A DNA stretch of 10,211 nt, from assembly GCA_016209865.1 (NCBI GenBank), contig JACQVL010000200.1, forward strand, positions 1 to 10,211, read 5' to 3'. Both the position numbers and the translations under genes were made by a program. The notes beneath the pieces are model-generated. The model had not been told where the DNA came from and ran no database searches. It saw only the letters and a list, made by a program, of their open reading frames with translations. This DNA is from Candidatus Latescibacterota bacterium (GTDB taxonomy: Bacteria > JAAXHH01 > JACQVL01). Below are positions 663 through 10,111 of the stretch, piece by piece. The stretch's first letter is position 1. Every line of letters starts with the position of its first letter.

Positions 663-725
663 AAGGACGAAGGACGAAACTGCAAGGGGAATTAAAAGGA
701 CGAAGGACAAAGGACGAAACTGCAA
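660..725 (+). repeat. Two direct copies of a purine-rich heptamer element (ARGGACR units)
   Basis: Two copies lie at 660-685 and 693-725. Both begin TAAAAGGACGAAGGAC and end GAAACTGCAA. The second copy is longer by exactly 7 bases, one extra AAGGACA-type unit, as expected for slippage in a tandem heptamer. The fabV stop codon lies in the first three bases of copy one. Units alternate G and A at the last position, the same G/A/G rhythm seen in the GTGACRA arrays elsewhere in the window. Function is unknown. Confidence 0.85.
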
Positions 726-794: not shown

Positions 795-827
795 AGGTAT
801 CAGACCCGGCAGAGGAATGAATCGGTT

Positions 828-898
828 TTGTTCTTCGTCCTTTGTTTTTTTCGTCCTTTGTCCTTGTCCTTTTCGTCCTTCATCCTTCGTCCTTGCCT
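828..898 (-). repeat. Heptamer-like repeat, inverted relative to the 660-725 copies
   Basis: The plus strand is pyrimidine-rich with repeated GTCCTTT, GTCCTTC and GTCCTT units; the minus strand reads AAGGACG/AAGGACA like the element next to fabV. Bases 850-865 are the exact complement of 703-718 (16 bp), so a transcript reading through from either side could form a long stem enclosing the two small hairpins. Spacing is less regular than in the other arrays, with 6- to 9-base steps. It begins five bases downstream of the purH stop. Confidence 0.75.
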
Positions 899-900
899 TC

Positions 901-2016
901 TCAGTGGTGCGAAAAACACCGCTCGCCCGTGAACACCATCGCGATCCCATGTTCGTTGCACGCGTCGATGCACTCGTAGTCCCTGATCGACCCGCCCGGC
1001 TGGACGATCGCCGCAACCCCCGCACGCGCCGCCATGTCGATCGAGTCGCGGAAGGGGATGTACCCGTCGGAGGCCATGACCGCTCCCTCGATCCGCTCCT
1101 CGCCACGGTATTTTCGCTGGTATTTCTCGATCGCCTGCTCGACCGCGCCGACCCGGTCCTGCTGACCCGTCCCGACCGCTAATGTCGTCCCGTTCCGGGC
1201 GATGACGACCGCGTTCGACCGGACGCCGATCGTGGTATACCAGGCGAACAGGAGGTCCTGCGCCTCCCGTGCTGTCAGCCTCCGCTCGATCCGGACCGTC
1301 CCGCGCGTCTTGTGCTCCGCCTCCGCCGGGATCAGGTCCTCACTCGATCGGATTTTCGACAGGAACGGCACGGCCATGATCAGGGAGCCATCCCCTAACA
1401 CCTTGATCTCCCGATGTCCCTCGGTCTCGTCCCCGATGAATTTGGGCAACTGGTCGAGCCCCGGCACTTCGACCACCCGGATGTCCCGGTTCTTACCAAA
1501 CCGTTTGAAATCCTCGAACAGAGCGAGCACGCTCGGCTCGTAGCCGGGAGCCACGACGCACTCGACGACGGTCGTCATGATTTCTTCCGCCGTCGACCGG
1601 TCGACCGGTCGGTTGAACCCGACGACCGACCCGAACGCCGCCTGCGTGTCGCAGTCCCGCGCCCGGACGTAGACCGTCCGGAGCGTCTCCCCGGACAGCC
1701 CGACGGCCACTCCGCTCGGGTTGACGTGTTTCATCACCGCTGCCGCTGGCCCGGTCTGGTATTTCAGGATGGACAACGCGCCGTTCATATCCTCAAGGTT
1801 CGTCTGAGACAGCCCGCTCTTCCCCTCCTTGAGCACCCGATGCTGGCCGAGGACGAGCGCGGTGGCGTGAGCCGGACGGTAATAGGCCGCTGGCTGGTGG
1901 GGGTTCGTCCCGTACCGCAGGTCGGTCACCTTCACGTACGTGACGCCCAGACAATCAAACTGATCAGGGAACTCACCGACATTGGCCGTGAAGTACAGGT
2001 TGCGGAGGCTTGACAT
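901..2016 (-). CDS. purH: Stand-alone AICAR transformylase (PurH C-terminal domain, no IMP cyclohydrolase domain)
   Basis: The protein (371 residues) transfers a formyl group from 10-formyl-tetrahydrofolate to AICAR to give FAICAR, the penultimate step of IMP synthesis. It contains only the AICARFT region: LRYGTNPHQ near residue 33, the catalytic Lys-His in MKHVNPSG (K96, H97), AFGSVVGFNRPVD, APGYEPSVL, SNAVVIARNG, and the C-terminal run from ASDGYIPFRDS through QPGGSIRDYE to AMVFTGERCFSHH. Bifunctional PurH is about 520 residues with an N-terminal MGS-like IMP cyclohydrolase domain, which is absent here. Stand-alone versions are known in some bacteria and archaea. I chose ATG 2016, preceded by AAGGG with an 8-base spacer. 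The frame is open upstream to 2088, but that part is translated REP-like sequence (FPRKRES). The gene is last in the minus-strand series, 75 bp after mqnA, and converges on fabV. Confidence 0.93.
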   Translation of the reverse strand: MSSLRNLYFTANVGEFPDQFDCLGVTYVKVTDLRYGTNPHQPAAYYRPAHATALVLGQHRVLKEGKSGLSQTNLEDMNGALSILKYQTGPAAAVMKHVNPSGVAVGLSGETLRTVYVRARDCDTQAAFGSVVGFNRPVDRSTAEEIMTTVVECVVAPGYEPSVLALFEDFKRFGKNRDIRVVEVPGLDQLPKFIGDETEGHREIKVLGDGSLIMAVPFLSKIRSSEDLIPAEAEHKTRGTVRIERRLTAREAQDLLFAWYTTIGVRSNAVVIARNGTTLAVGTGQQDRVGAVEQAIEKYQRKYRGEERIEGAVMASDGYIPFRDSIDMAARAGVAAIVQPGGSIRDYECIDACNEHGIAMVFTGERCFSHH

Positions 2017-2056: not shown

Positions 2057-2081
2057 GACAATAAAAACGTGGGTTGCTTGC

Positions 2082-2110
2082 TCGTCACTCGTCACTTGTC
2101 ACTCGTCACT
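2082..2110 (-). repeat. Heptamer array, four units (GTGACRA on the minus strand)
   Basis: Four tandem 7-bp units of plus-strand consensus TYGTCAC plus one extra T. The third unit (2096-2102) carries T at position 2 and the others carry C. The mqnA stop codon TGA (2094-2092) and its last five codons are inside the array. Each minus-strand unit contains TGA, and because 7 is not divisible by 3, any three consecutive units place a stop in all three frames of that strand. Confidence 0.9.
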
Positions 2111-2913
2111 GCTCTCTCATAAAATCGTATCGCCGGTATTGCCTCGATCAGTCCGAGCCGGTGGGCACGCTCGTAGAATTCCATCAGCCCGGCGAGCTCG
2201 TCCGGCCCGAGAGGGTACTGGAGGTGATCCCGCAGGTACGATTCGTAGAACGCGGACGAGCCGGGATGGGATGCGGCATGCTCAGCCGCGATCTGGCGGA
2301 TGAGGGTCATCCCGACCTCTTTCGCGCGGATCAGACTGTCGACCGCGATCGAATCGAGTGCGTCCTCGCGTCCCGCCCAGAAGGCGTAGACGAACGGCCG
2401 GCCGGTCATCGCAAACCATTCGAGGCCCAGGTCCCGGCGTGGTTCCGGCCGGTCGGTATAGTCGAGCGCGTTGTCCCCGATGACGAGCGCCGCGTCCGCG
2501 ACGGCGAGCATCTCGTCGAGCACCGGCGGATGGTCGATATACCTGGCGATCAGCCCGTACCGATCTCTCAGGATGATCTGCGCCAGCGCGGCGGACGTGC
2601 GGGAGCTCGAATCGAGCGCGACCGTCCTGATGCGGTCGAACGGGACTGTATGGAATAAGAGGATGCTCTGGACCGGGCCGCGCGAGGAGATCGAGATGTC
2701 CGGGACGATCCAGTAAGGCACCGCGCTCCGGGCGTACTCGATCGAAGGAATGATGCCCACATCCGCCTCCCCGCGCTTCAACTTCGTCGCGCAGACGGAC
2801 GGGACGTCATAGGCAATCTCGAAATCATGCGGCACACGGCGCTGGGCGAGCGGAAGGACGAGAGGCCTGGAGTTGAGGTAACTGACGGCGCTGAGTCGGG
2901 TTGGCATATTCAC
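2092..2913 (-). CDS. mqnA: Chorismate dehydratase MqnA (futalosine menaquinone pathway)
   Basis: MqnA dehydrates chorismate to 3-[(1-carboxyvinyl)oxy]benzoate, the first committed step of the futalosine route. The protein (273 residues) has the family's periplasmic-binding-protein-like fold signatures: AVSYLNSRPL at 9-18, GEADVGIIPSIEY at 48-60, SSRGPVQSILLF at 76-87, DSSSRTSAAL at 101-110, ADAALVIGDNAL at 139-150, and TGRPFVYAFW at 170-179. No signal peptide is visible, as expected for a cytoplasmic enzyme. The GTG start at 2913 overlaps the mqnC stop by four bases (GTGA), pointing to translational coupling; an ATG two codons later is an alternative. The native end appears to be near RFYER; the final VTSDK and the stop are encoded by a heptamer repeat, and the same five residues end MqnE. 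Confidence 0.95.
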   Translation of the reverse strand: MNMPTRLSAVSYLNSRPLVLPLAQRRVPHDFEIAYDVPSVCATKLKRGEADVGIIPSIEYARSAVPYWIVPDISISSRGPVQSILLFHTVPFDRIRTVALDSSSRTSAALAQIILRDRYGLIARYIDHPPVLDEMLAVADAALVIGDNALDYTDRPEPRRDLGLEWFAMTGRPFVYAFWAGREDALDSIAVDSLIRAKEVGMTLIRQIAAEHAASHPGSSAFYESYLRDHLQYPLGPDELAGLMEFYERAHRLGLIEAIPAIRFYERAVTSDK

Positions 2914-4001
2914 TTCACTGCCTCATACCTCGTATTCCTCCGCCGTGGCTCGAACCCGGCGTCCCGGATGAGCCGTTCGATCTCCTGGACGGGCATGACG
3001 AAGCTCGTCCCCCCCGCGCTGATGACGTTCTCCTCCATCATCGTGCTGCCGAAATCGTTGATCCCGTACCGGAGGGCGATCTGCGCGATCTTCGGCCCCT
3101 GCGTGACGTACGACGCCTGGATGTTCTCGATGTTGTCCAGCATCAGCCGGGCGACGGCGACGGTGCGGAGATAATCGTACCCCGTGGCCTTGCGCGTCCC
3201 TTCTAACTCCGTCCCTTCCGGCTGGAAGCTCCAGGCGATGAACGCGGTGAAATACCCGCCGTCGCGGGCACGCGCGTCGTCCTGCACATCCCGCACCCGG
3301 AGCAGGTGCCTCAGGCGATGCTCGACCGTCTCGACCGACCCGAACATCATCGTCGCCGTCGATTTCATACCGATGCAGTGGGCCGTCCGGTGCACGTCCA
3401 GCCACTCGTCCGTGGTTTCCTTGCGGTACGCGATCACCCGGCGGACTTCGTCGTCTAAGATCTCGGCGCCCGCCCCGGGGAGGGACGACAGACCGGCGTT
3501 CCGGAGCCGGACGAGCGTTTCTTCGACCGACAGTCGGGAGATGTGCGCGATGTAGACGATCTCCGCGACGGAGAGCGAGTGAATGTAGACCGCCGGATAA
3601 CGGGCTTTGACGGTGGAAAACAGGCGTTCATAGTACTCGATCCTCAGCTTCGGGTTCAGACCGCCCTGCATCAGGATTTCGCACGATTCCGGCTCGGCCC
3701 CTCCGGCCGTGACGAGGTCGTCGATCTTCCTGAAAATCTCTTCATCGGAGAGGGTATACCCTTCAGCATGGCCCGGCGGGCGGTAGAACGCGCAGAAGGT
3801 ACACCGCACCCAGCAGACGTTCGTGTAGTTGATGTTCCGTCCGACGTTGTACGTGACGACCGGCTCCGGATGCTTCGTCCACCGGACGGAGTCGGCCAGC
3901 AGTCCCAGCTCCGTTACGTTATGGTGGTGGAACAGCCGCAGGCCGTCCTCGTACGTCAGCCGCTCGCCTGCGTACACTTTTTCGGCAATATCCGTGATCA
4001 T
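2910..4001 (-). CDS. mqnC: Cyclic dehypoxanthine futalosine synthase MqnC (radical SAM)
   Basis: MqnC uses a [4Fe-4S] cluster and S-adenosylmethionine to cyclise dehypoxanthine futalosine. The radical SAM motif CX3CX2C is in NYTNVCWVRCTFCAFYRPPG (C63, C67, C70 of 363 residues). MqnC rather than MqnE is indicated by MQGGLNPKL, IHSLSVAEIVYIA, SLPGAGAEIL, TATMMFGSVE, ATGYDYLRTVAVARLMLDN, NIQASYVTQGPK and NDFGSTMMEENV. I chose ATG 4001 because GGAG stands eight bases upstream and residues MITDIAEKVYAGERL match the usual N-terminus; the longer frame would need a TTG at 4043 without a binding site. It is 94 bp downstream of mqnE and overlaps mqnA by four bases. The adjacent mqnE is a paralogue of the same superfamily with a different signature set, so the two calls support each other. 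Confidence 0.95.
   Translation of the reverse strand: MITDIAEKVYAGERLTYEDGLRLFHHHNVTELGLLADSVRWTKHPEPVVTYNVGRNINYTNVCWVRCTFCAFYRPPGHAEGYTLSDEEIFRKIDDLVTAGGAEPESCEILMQGGLNPKLRIEYYERLFSTVKARYPAVYIHSLSVAEIVYIAHISRLSVEETLVRLRNAGLSSLPGAGAEILDDEVRRVIAYRKETTDEWLDVHRTAHCIGMKSTATMMFGSVETVEHRLRHLLRVRDVQDDARARDGGYFTAFIAWSFQPEGTELEGTRKATGYDYLRTVAVARLMLDNIENIQASYVTQGPKIAQIALRYGINDFGSTMMEENVISAGGTSFVMPVQEIERLIRDAGFEPRRRNTRYEAVK
2921..2924 (-). promoter_or_regulatory. Ribosome binding site of mqnA inside the mqnC coding end
   Basis: GAGG on the minus strand lies seven bases before the GTG at 2913 and inside the last codons of mqnC. It favours the GTG over the ATG at 2907, which would be 13 bases away, and supports coupled translation of mqnC and mqnA. 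Confidence 0.6.
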
Positions 4002-4009
4002 CGAGGGAA

Positions 4010-4013
4010 CTCC
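4010..4013 (-). promoter_or_regulatory. Ribosome binding site deciding the mqnC start
   Basis: GGAG on the minus strand sits eight bases before the ATG at 4001. The competing TTG at 4043 has no such sequence in front of it; the bases there belong to a nonamer repeat. Confidence 0.65.
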
Positions 4014-4029
4014 AGTATCTGGCTCAAAC

Positions 4030-4047
4030 CGCAAAGGGCGCAAAGAG
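4030..4047. repeat. Two-unit nonamer repeat in the mqnE-mqnC gap
   Basis: CGCAAAGGG (4030-4038) is followed directly by CGCAAAGAG (4039-4047), two 9-bp units differing at one base. It is short and may be chance, but it stands beside a heptamer array and next to an imperfect palindrome (GTCAT at 4058-4062, ATGAC at 4076-4080). Confidence 0.5.
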
Positions 4048-4092
4048 CACGAAGAAAGTCATGAATTCCTGCGTAATGACGATAGATTTTTC

Positions 4093-4114
4093 TCGTCACT
4101 TGTCACTCGTCACT
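4093..4114 (-). repeat. Heptamer array, three units (GTGACRA on the minus strand)
   Basis: Three tandem units of plus-strand consensus TYGTCAC plus one T, with the T-variant unit in the middle. The order matches the last three units of the array at the end of mqnA. The mqnE stop codon (4098-4096) falls in the unit directly beside the T-variant unit, exactly as in mqnA, so the reading phase into the repeat is the same in both genes. Confidence 0.9.
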
Positions 4115-5223
4115 ATTCTCATCGGCTCTGGCCGGTCGATGATGTGGTACAGCGCGTCTCGCTCGATCGGCTCGCGTCCCGCCTCCGCGATCATGTCGAG
4201 CATCTGCGTCCGGGTGAGTGCCTGCATCCGGTCGGTCACCGGGTCGCGCGTGATTTCATACTCCAGGACGCTCCCGTCCATATCGTCCGCGCCGTACCAC
4301 AGGGCGACCTGCGTGACCGCCGGGGAATTCATGATCCAGAACGACTTGATGTGCGGGAAATTGTCCAGCATCAGCCGGGCAACCGCGATCTCCCGCAAGT
4401 CCATCTGGCCGGTCGGTCCGGGCAGGTGCTCGATGGCCGTCCGCTCCGGATGCCAGGACAGAGGGATGAACGCCAAGAACCCGTTTGTCTCATCCTGTAG
4501 TTCGCGGAGCTTGACGAAATGGTAGACTTTCTCGTCCGTCTGCTCGACGTGGCCGTACAGCATCGTCGCGTTCGACGGGAGGCCGATCAGGTGGGCGGTG
4601 CGAGCGGTCTCCAGCCATTTGTCGGAATCGGACTTCGCCTGGAACAGCTCCTCGTGCACCCGGTCGCTGAACACTTCCGCGCCGCCGCCCGGCAGGGCAT
4701 CGACCCCGGCCTCCTTCAGTTCCATGAGGGTCTCATCTAACGGCTTCTTCGCCACGCGCCGAATCTGCTCGATCTCGATCATCGTGAACGCTTTGAGGGA
4801 GACCGCAGGCCGGACTTCTTTGATCGCCCGGACGACGTCGAGGTAGTACGAGTACGGGAGCTTTGGGTTGACCCCGCCGACCATGTGGATTTCAGAGATG
4901 GGAATGGTGATGTACTGGCGCACCCGATCCTGGACCTGCTCCGGGGAGAGGACGTACCCGGCCGGGTCCTTCGGCGGGGCGTAGAACGAGCAGAACAGGC
5001 AACTCTTGTTGCAGACGTTCGTGTAATTGATGTGCTGGTTGCGGACGAAGTACGCCCGGTGCCCGTTCATCCGCTCCCGGACGAGGTTGGCCAGGTAGCC
5101 GACGGCGGGCAGGTTGGGCGTTCTATACAGCCTCAGCCCGTCGTCGTACGACAGCCGTTCACCGTCGAGCACTTTCTGATGTATCTCCGCAAGCCCGGCC
5201 TGGGCGAGGAGGGTATCGAACAC
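4096..5223 (-). CDS. mqnE: Aminofutalosine synthase MqnE (radical SAM)
   Basis: MqnE adds the 5'-deoxyadenosyl radical from S-adenosylmethionine to 3-[(1-carboxyvinyl)oxy]benzoate, the MqnA product, giving 6-amino-6-deoxyfutalosine. The protein (375 residues) has CX3CX2C in HINYTNVCNKSCLFCSFYAP (C71, C75, C78). MqnE-type signatures are EIHMVGGVNPKLPYSYYLD, LKAFTMIEIEQI, LPGGGAEVFSDRV, GLPSNATMLYGHVE, FLAFIPLSWHPE, HLPGPTGQMDLREIAVARL, DNFPHIKSFWIM and YGADDMDGSV. The GTG start at 5223 is set by GGAGG six bases upstream. It lies 30 bp after the ubiD-like gene, so the two are probably co-transcribed. The last residues VTSDK and the stop come from the heptamer repeat. MqnC was the alternative for this gene, but the CNKSC cluster and the GPTG motif fit MqnE. 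Confidence 0.95.
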   Translation of the reverse strand: MFDTLLAQAGLAEIHQKVLDGERLSYDDGLRLYRTPNLPAVGYLANLVRERMNGHRAYFVRNQHINYTNVCNKSCLFCSFYAPPKDPAGYVLSPEQVQDRVRQYITIPISEIHMVGGVNPKLPYSYYLDVVRAIKEVRPAVSLKAFTMIEIEQIRRVAKKPLDETLMELKEAGVDALPGGGAEVFSDRVHEELFQAKSDSDKWLETARTAHLIGLPSNATMLYGHVEQTDEKVYHFVKLRELQDETNGFLAFIPLSWHPERTAIEHLPGPTGQMDLREIAVARLMLDNFPHIKSFWIMNSPAVTQVALWYGADDMDGSVLEYEITRDPVTDRMQALTRTQMLDMIAEAGREPIERDALYHIIDRPEPMRIVTSDK

Positions 5224-6699: not shown

Positions 6700-6707
6700 A
6701 GAGAGAC

Positions 6708-6724
6708 GGTGGTCGGTGGTCGGT
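6708..6724. repeat. Heptamer array, 2.4 units of GGTGGTC, upstream of ubiD
   Basis: Two full GGTGGTC units and GGT, ending eight bases before the ubiD ATG. On the minus, coding strand it reads ACCGACC repeats, so the usual ribosome-binding position is filled by CT- and AC-rich sequence rather than a purine run. Confidence 0.8.
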
Positions 6725-6728
6725 TTTA

Positions 6729-6773
6729 GCCCCGGAGGGGCGGTCGATCATAGCCCACGGCTTCAGCCGTGGG
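6729..6773. repeat. Two adjacent hairpins in the aroA-ubiD gap
   Basis: GCCCC-GGA-GGGGC forms a short hairpin at 6729-6741. CCCACGGC (6754-6761) and GCCGTGGG (6766-6773), with loop TTCA, form a longer one. Both are perfect. They look like dispersed palindromic repeat units rather than a terminator, since on the minus strand the second hairpin is not followed by a T run. Confidence 0.75.
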
Positions 6774-8998: not shown

Positions 8999-9022
8999 AG
9001 TGACGAGTGACAAGTGACGAGT
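8999..9022 (+). repeat. Heptamer array, three units (AGTGACR on the plus strand)
   Basis: Three units, AGTGACG, AGTGACA, AGTGACG, followed by a partial AGT. It is the same repeat as at the ends of mqnA and mqnE but in the opposite orientation. Here it lies upstream of a gene rather than at its end. Confidence 0.9.
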
Positions 9023-10057: not shown

Positions 10058-10111
10058 GGTGGTCAGTGGTCAGTAAAGCCAGTTTTAACCGACCACCGGT
10101 CACCGATCACC
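10058..10111. repeat. Two facing heptamer arrays upstream of ilvE
   Basis: The left array has two exact GGTCAGT units (10061-10074) preceded by GGT. The right array (10088-10111), read on the minus strand, is GGTGATC, GGTGACC, GGTGGTC, GGT. GGTGGTC at 10058-10064 is the complement of GACCACC at 10091-10097, so the two can pair. The right array contains the stop codon of the neighbouring partial gene. These units bridge the GGTGGTC type near ubiD and the GTGAC type near mqnA and mqnE. Confidence 0.8.

Follow-up and report, generated by a model that had tools for sequence, protein, structure and literature searches.

VTSDK protein tails as by-products of directional heptamer arrays at bacterial gene borders

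The C-terminal peptide VTSDK shared by two unrelated enzymes of a Candidatus Latescibacterota bacterium is a passenger peptide, a by-product of a heptamer repeat, and the proteins have no need of a shared tail. The arrays that encode it are probably (a probability of roughly 0.7) arms of small inverted-repeat elements lying between genes, some in pairs and others left without a partner, and these elements behave as swappable modules. Each arm would consist of a run of one G-rich heptamer (AGTGACR or one of at least ten other units) with a short A-rich stretch outside it. The arrays follow a rule of orientation, pair with each other, keep a conserved flank, occur in many phyla and are exchanged between families at orthologous gene borders.

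Window arrays and the gene ends they reach

The window, which is the whole stretch of 10,211 nucleotides analysed, belongs to a draft genome of 3.75 Mb in 356 contigs (83% complete; hereafter G000), whose nearest relatives examined are from other families of the same order. Its relevant features are as follows:

663-718 (+): AAGGACG arrays adjoining the fabV stop (660-662) and directed into the spacer; they form the left arm in a facing pair
826-894 (-): AAGGACG arrays next to the 3′ end of purH; they form the right arm in that pair, between the convergent fabV and purH
2081-2110 (-): AGTGACG-AGTGACA-AGTGACG-AGTGACG-AG array at the mqnA end (VTSDK 2095-2109, stop 2092-2094)
2092-2913 (-): mqnA (PF02621), C-terminus ...RFYERA-VTSDK-TGA, with RA-VTSDK probably supplied by the array module
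4092-4114 (-): AGTGACG-AGTGACA-AGTGACG-AG array at the mqnE end (VTSDK 4099-4113, stop 4096-4098)
4096-5223 (-): mqnE, aminofutalosine synthase (TIGR03700, Radical_SAM and CofH_C), C-terminus ...RPEPMRI-VTSDK-TGA, with RI-VTSDK probably from the array module
6707-6724 (+): CGGTGGT array, outer end towards the 5′ end of a UbiD-family menaquinone decarboxylase gene
8999-9022 (+): third window copy of the 23-mer AGTGACGAGTGACAAGTGACGAG, outer end towards the 5′ end of a PhyH gene, reading into the spacer
10059-10074 (+): GTGGTCA array with its outer end pointing to the 5′ end of ilvE; left arm, facing 10088-10111
10088-10111 (-): GGTGATC/GGTGACC/GGTGGTC array, right arm and partner of 10059-10074; holds the stop of the right-edge gene (...GESGDR*)

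No inverted partner of the mqnA-end array was seen on its purH side. The purH gene itself (901-2016, minus strand) encodes the AICAR formyltransferase part only, matching PurH from about residue 186, and the IMP cyclohydrolase part is missing. A palindrome, GGATTCCCGCTTGCGCGGGAATGACA, at about 2036-2061 represents a second dispersed repeat, which is found inside many spacers between heptamer arms. On the mqnC side, ACCGCAAAGGGCGCAAAGAGCACGAAGAAAG (4021-4060, plus strand) is a repeat of another period that lies opposite the mqnE array, and given this arrangement the facing rule described below may reach beyond heptamers.

The first-pass annotation had noticed that MqnA and MqnE both end in VTSDK followed by a stop codon, and the coordinates were confirmed: each tail is read from an array that contains AGTGACGAGTGACAAGTGACGAG (23 bases). 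The lack of relationship between both enzymes also stands (PF02621 versus Radical_SAM plus CofH_C, TIGR03700), and their family profiles stop at residue 251 of 273 in MqnA and 367 of 375 in MqnE, with the tails outside the profiles. The further idea that the array starts at the native C-terminus is right for MqnA, whose homologues in same-order relatives end in RFYET, RFYPRQ or RFYPRQGRR where the window reads RFYE-RAVTSDK. For MqnE it is only approximate, as the homologues show longer and variable tails of about 10-45 residues past the RPE(P/T) position, where the window reads RPEP-MRIVTSDK. The relatives compared carry neither the repeat nor VTSDK, and the 21-base core of the AGTGACGAGTGACAAGTGACGAG run was found in no relative searched. 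These same-order genomes are too distant (78-83% protein identity in MqnE) to serve as empty sites for the window. The gap between mqnE and mqnC measures 5-40 nt in 13 relatives (mostly 5) versus 94 nt in the window; therefore, additional DNA came with the array at this narrow border between genes. As for the other two stops assigned to repeats, that of the right-edge gene (SGDR-TGA) does lie within the heptamer array at 10088-10111, whereas the fabV stop at 660-662 abuts the AAGGACG array starting at 663, yet is not inside it.

A count of C-termini was carried out over 1.13 Mb of G000, read as stretches with home-made gene calls in which stops are reliable and starts less so. VTSDK came out as the top C-terminal pentapeptide (10 of 895 genes), with SDE and Q endings about equally frequent, and SDE (14) and SDK (11) were the commonest C-terminal tripeptides among these genes; contigs bearing the 23-mer had been chosen on purpose, which raises the density of arrays and the number of C-termini derived from repeats, while the statistics of orientation and frame are unaffected. 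The 13 proteins ending in VTSD[KE] show no similarity to one another, and 11 of them have K or R two residues before the V (p about 1e-9), because the A-rich flank travels with the array. The added tail would thus probably comprise seven residues and not five, [K/R]-[A/S/I]-VTSDK.

Abundance, direction and stop codons

The 23-mer AGTGACGAGTGACAAGTGACGAG has 93 exact copies in G000, and none when written backwards as a control. More generally, the 1.13 Mb sample contains 347 arrays of period 7, most of them outside genes, versus 5 in a Markov control; a signal at period 14 is a multiple of 7, whereas the other periods are at or near background, with a modest excess at period 8. A chance origin is excluded. 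Strings of two to four AGTGACR units dominate, with no preference for four units of the type described by Rehm et al. (2015), and the GAG order of units is the prevailing one in G000. A fixed 23-mer copied as such through all phyla was rejected, since the A/G order varies freely in other genomes, and so was a quadruplex role for AGTGACR, which has no GG run or G-tracts. The arrays begin at one phase with a C just before them, between A-rich outer (AAGAGC-like) and inner (AAAAA) flanks: C occupies position -1 in 122 of 144 arrays, with A at -3 in 112 and at -5 in 102, and a tract with A at four of five positions lies outside the outer end of 36% of arrays versus 1.3% of random points.

In every large family of G000, the G-rich strand runs from the gene edge into the spacer. 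At gene 3′ ends, the median distance to the outer end of the array is 1-7 nt, and at 5′ ends about 20-35 nt; some 100 nt separate the inner end from the next gene. For AGTGACR, the median distance from the array to the 5′ end of the downstream gene is 128 nt, and no placement at start codons of the TAACTGA type was found. Checked against the gene map, the 9 arrays listed for the window all obey this rule. Of the neighbouring arrays separated by less than 200 bp, 83 pairs are facing and 25 lie on the same strand (all but one of these with different families), and none are back to back. AGTGACR alone gives 30 facing pairs out of 30, and its inverted partner is located inward in 39 of 111 arrays and outward in none. 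About two thirds of the tested AGTGACR arrays of G000 (at least 22 nt) have no same-family partner within 250 bp, and the spacers between arms are not conserved, so that many copies in this genome are not tidy hairpins. This tells against the module reading, as does the weak fold (z -1.45) of the last pair of the window (10059-10074/10088-10111).

It had also been proposed that a sense array closes every reading frame, whatever its phase, after only a few extra residues, a view that the gene ends bear out. Among 99 AGTGACR arrays with a gene 3′ end on their outer side, 40 hold the stop codon of that gene, versus 0 of the 61 cases in which the 3′ end faces the inner side (antisense). Overlaps range from 2 to 19 nt: 19 nt (VTSDK/E) in 12 genes, 12-13 nt (SDE/K) in 11, 5 nt (Q) in 10 and 2-7 nt in the remaining 7. 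The same annotation went further and saw in the stop codons a possible reason for the arrays being tolerated at gene ends, where three-frame stops would make their landing harmless. Besides the sense bias, this reading draws on the fact that stop-bearing families overlap gene stops more often than stop-less ones (53 of 111 versus 21 of 72, p = 0.014), and an equivalent argument has been published for TAACTGA (PMC4679880). However, the families ATTTTGG, CGGTGGT, AAGGACG and CGGGGTT, which lack stop codons in all frames on both strands, show an equal closeness to gene 3′ ends (median 1-7 nt) and an identical direction, as does GGGAATC in Xanthomonas (PMC4692102), and the rule also holds at gene 5′ ends, where stops are irrelevant. 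Harmless landing is therefore an unlikely account, and as a cause of placement it is for the most part disproved. What stop codons influence is how deep the overlap goes, not where arrays are placed; the few residues added are due to the stop codons of the array, which do not explain its position at gene ends.

Under the module reading, the pathway would start with the entry of whole elements into the short gaps of a compact genome. With so little room (relatives have 5-40 nt between mqnE and mqnC), the outer end of the element would land on or near the upstream stop codon. The last codons would be replaced, and the gene would then run into the array up to the first in-frame TGA, yielding VTSDK, SDE or Q depending on the phase.

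Occurrence in other phyla and turnover between close species

A scan of GTDB r220 gave matches to the 23-mer AGTGACGAGTGACAAGTGACGAG that, among those listed, include Acidobacteriota, Bacteroidota, Kapaibacterium, Ignavibacteria, Neomarinimicrobiota, Verrucomicrobia, Kiritimatiellae, Chloroflexi, Aminicenantes, Nitrospinota, Proteobacteria and others. In 110 loci of other phyla, where gene calls were cruder (longest open frames), AGTGACR pairs are facing in 59 cases and back to back in 1, gene stops fall within 55 of 115 sense arrays and 0 of 67 antisense ones, and the gene ends VTSDK, VTSDE, SDE and Q recur, read from the AGTGACR array. When all heptamer families of these loci are taken together, 109 pairs are facing and 9 back to back, which makes the facing rule strong but not absolute outside G000.

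The turnover of the arrays was followed in two Pyrinomonadaceae genomes, BP_17 (G059) and BP_15 (G060), about 92-96% identical over most aligned stretches, of which about 85 kb were compared and the borders classed by eye. At about ten orthologous borders, both species keep a heptamer-armed inverted pair, but of a different family (AGTGACA versus AAGTTTC, AGTGACG versus GCGGATT, and AGAGGTC versus GTTGTCC are examples). Other borders keep the family with changed units, two have the pair in one species only, and some inverted pairs are nested. At one border the spacer is inverted between similar arms (L281, about 1106-1200, versus L326), which points to recombination between arms. One of the presence/absence borders reads TTGGTCAG-TTATC without the pair and TTTGGTCAG-TTGTCAGTGGTCAG... 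when filled, so the array continues a unit-like seed. No clear target-site duplication was found at the two presence/absence sites (two sites only), and none was seen in the array flanks inspected by eye.

These data bear on local replication slippage, in which chance seeds would grow locally into heptamer runs and no modules would move. Such a process would fit the differences in unit number and A/G variant between orthologous copies, as well as the unit-like seed TTGGTCAGTT at a presence/absence site. Nevertheless, it has a low probability as a general explanation: the units, their start phase and the A-rich flank recur at hundreds of sites in many phyla, whole two-armed elements recur as well (in BP_15, elements of 85-97 bp exist in dozens of copies with 80-89% identity), and slippage cannot make inverted partners or swap families.

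A facing pair, flanked on one side by an A-tract and on the opposite side by a T-tract, may constitute a hairpin with two-way terminator-like action or one that protects 3′ ends, a weaker inference than that of the modules. Among the features of intrinsic terminators, the A/T tract is enriched and the fold is strong in one Pyrinomonadaceae copy, a BP_17 element predicted to form a nearly perfect hairpin with UUUUU behind it (-63 kcal/mol, z -7.1), while in G000 there are many single arms and long loops. This predicted function would explain why borders keep a hairpin while the family changes. Xanthomonas RNA data, in which transcripts start or stop more often at quadruplex-forming heptamer repeats (PMC4692102), fit a terminator-like action, but they are no proof for AGTGACR.

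Known heptamer repeats and candidate movers

The closest precedents are the GGGAATC and GGGGA(C/T)T heptamers of Xanthomonas and Nostoc (Rehm et al. 2015, PMC4692102), which are likewise tandem and intergenic, have the G-rich strand pointing away from the nearest gene, and lie near or over stop codons on the coding strand. GGGAATC, which contains no stop codons, forms 70-75 convergent pairs per Xanthomonas genome. Unlike AGTGACR, these heptamers have G-tracts and fold into quadruplexes, and Xanthomonas sites are mostly conserved between species (83%; PMC4692102), in contrast to the frequent family swaps seen here. TAACTGA direct repeats of Beggiatoaceae (MacGregor 2015, PMC4679880) resemble AGTGACR in stopping all frames in one orientation and in overlapping gene ends by up to 18 nt (LITDN* versus VTSDK*), with 13 such genes described. 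However, they are found mostly just upstream of start codons, with one indirect repeat only, and neither a flank rule nor a facing-pair rule was reported (PMC4679880). In the Class I and Class II P6b stems of the Nostoc trnL intron (Kaasalainen et al. 2015, PMC4476775), the arms are also complementary heptamer runs, and the whole stem has repeatedly been exchanged for another class, although at one locus in an intron, whereas the elements described here are spread genome-wide at gene borders.

Stop overlap (TAACTGA, PMC4679880), placement with convergent pairs (GGGAATC, PMC4692102) and stem exchange (Nostoc, PMC4476775) are thus already published. As far as the literature was searched, the new observations are the AGTGACR unit with its three C-terminal products, a placement independent of stop codons, a unit and geometry common to many phyla, and the exchange of families at many borders between close species. 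Together, the reports from Xanthomonas, Nostoc, Beggiatoaceae and the trnL intron look like one phenomenon across many phyla, and a general rule emerges that is testable in any genome: heptamer runs at gene borders with a fixed direction, mostly facing, and family-swapped between close species.

With regard to the mover, REPINs, the inverted REP pairs moved by RAYT (PMC3116915), offer the most familiar model. A REPIN or MITE mobilized by a known transposase would account for pairs that are inverted, extragenic, dispersed and nested. Against this, the arms are here tandem heptamers of many families, the spacer is variable, no target duplication appears at the two presence/absence sites, and Y1/RAYT (PF01797), the sole transposase family searched, is absent in G000, BP_17 and BP_15 (MAGs that may be incomplete). 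RAYT/Y1 was accordingly rejected as the mover, and this type of element seems improbable. A reverse transcriptase as writer was rejected as well, given the absence of PF00078 in G000 and in all seven other array-rich genomes tested, BP_17 and BP_15 among them, as far as incomplete assemblies allow. Finding neither enzyme in these genomes weighs against the module reading, as does the lack of a target-site duplication at the two presence/absence sites.

A highly speculative possibility is that an unrecognised enzyme writes G-rich heptamers in telomere fashion on both ends of intergenic breaks before their joining. Such writing would leave arrays that face each other, a seed resembling the unit (as at one presence/absence site) and swaps of family, and the lack of PF00078 implies that it would need a polymerase of another type. 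If this were true, facing pairs would be healed junctions, and the set of units found across phyla would reflect shared enzyme templates.

Selection at the protein level, with VTSDK as a useful tail or degradation tag, deserves hardly any credence: no other pentapeptide ends as many of the sampled genes, but the other two frame products are as common, the genes are unrelated, their relatives lack it, and loci of other phyla obtain the same frame products from the AGTGACR array. Predicted proteins ending in VTSDK, VTSDE, SDE or SDK in array-rich genomes are to be read as repeat-derived and not as carrying a motif.

A last observation concerns the Rfam family RF01687 (Acido-Lenti-1 "RNA"), which has a match in the window at 6728-6773 (minus strand), just inside the CGGTGGT arm. 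An Acidobacteria MAG (G062) contains about 50 copies of RF01687, many as inverted pairs about 148 bp apart with a nearly constant spacing, together with ten PF01797 transposase matches, a pattern suggesting that RF01687 represents a DNA repeat of the REPIN type instead of an sRNA.
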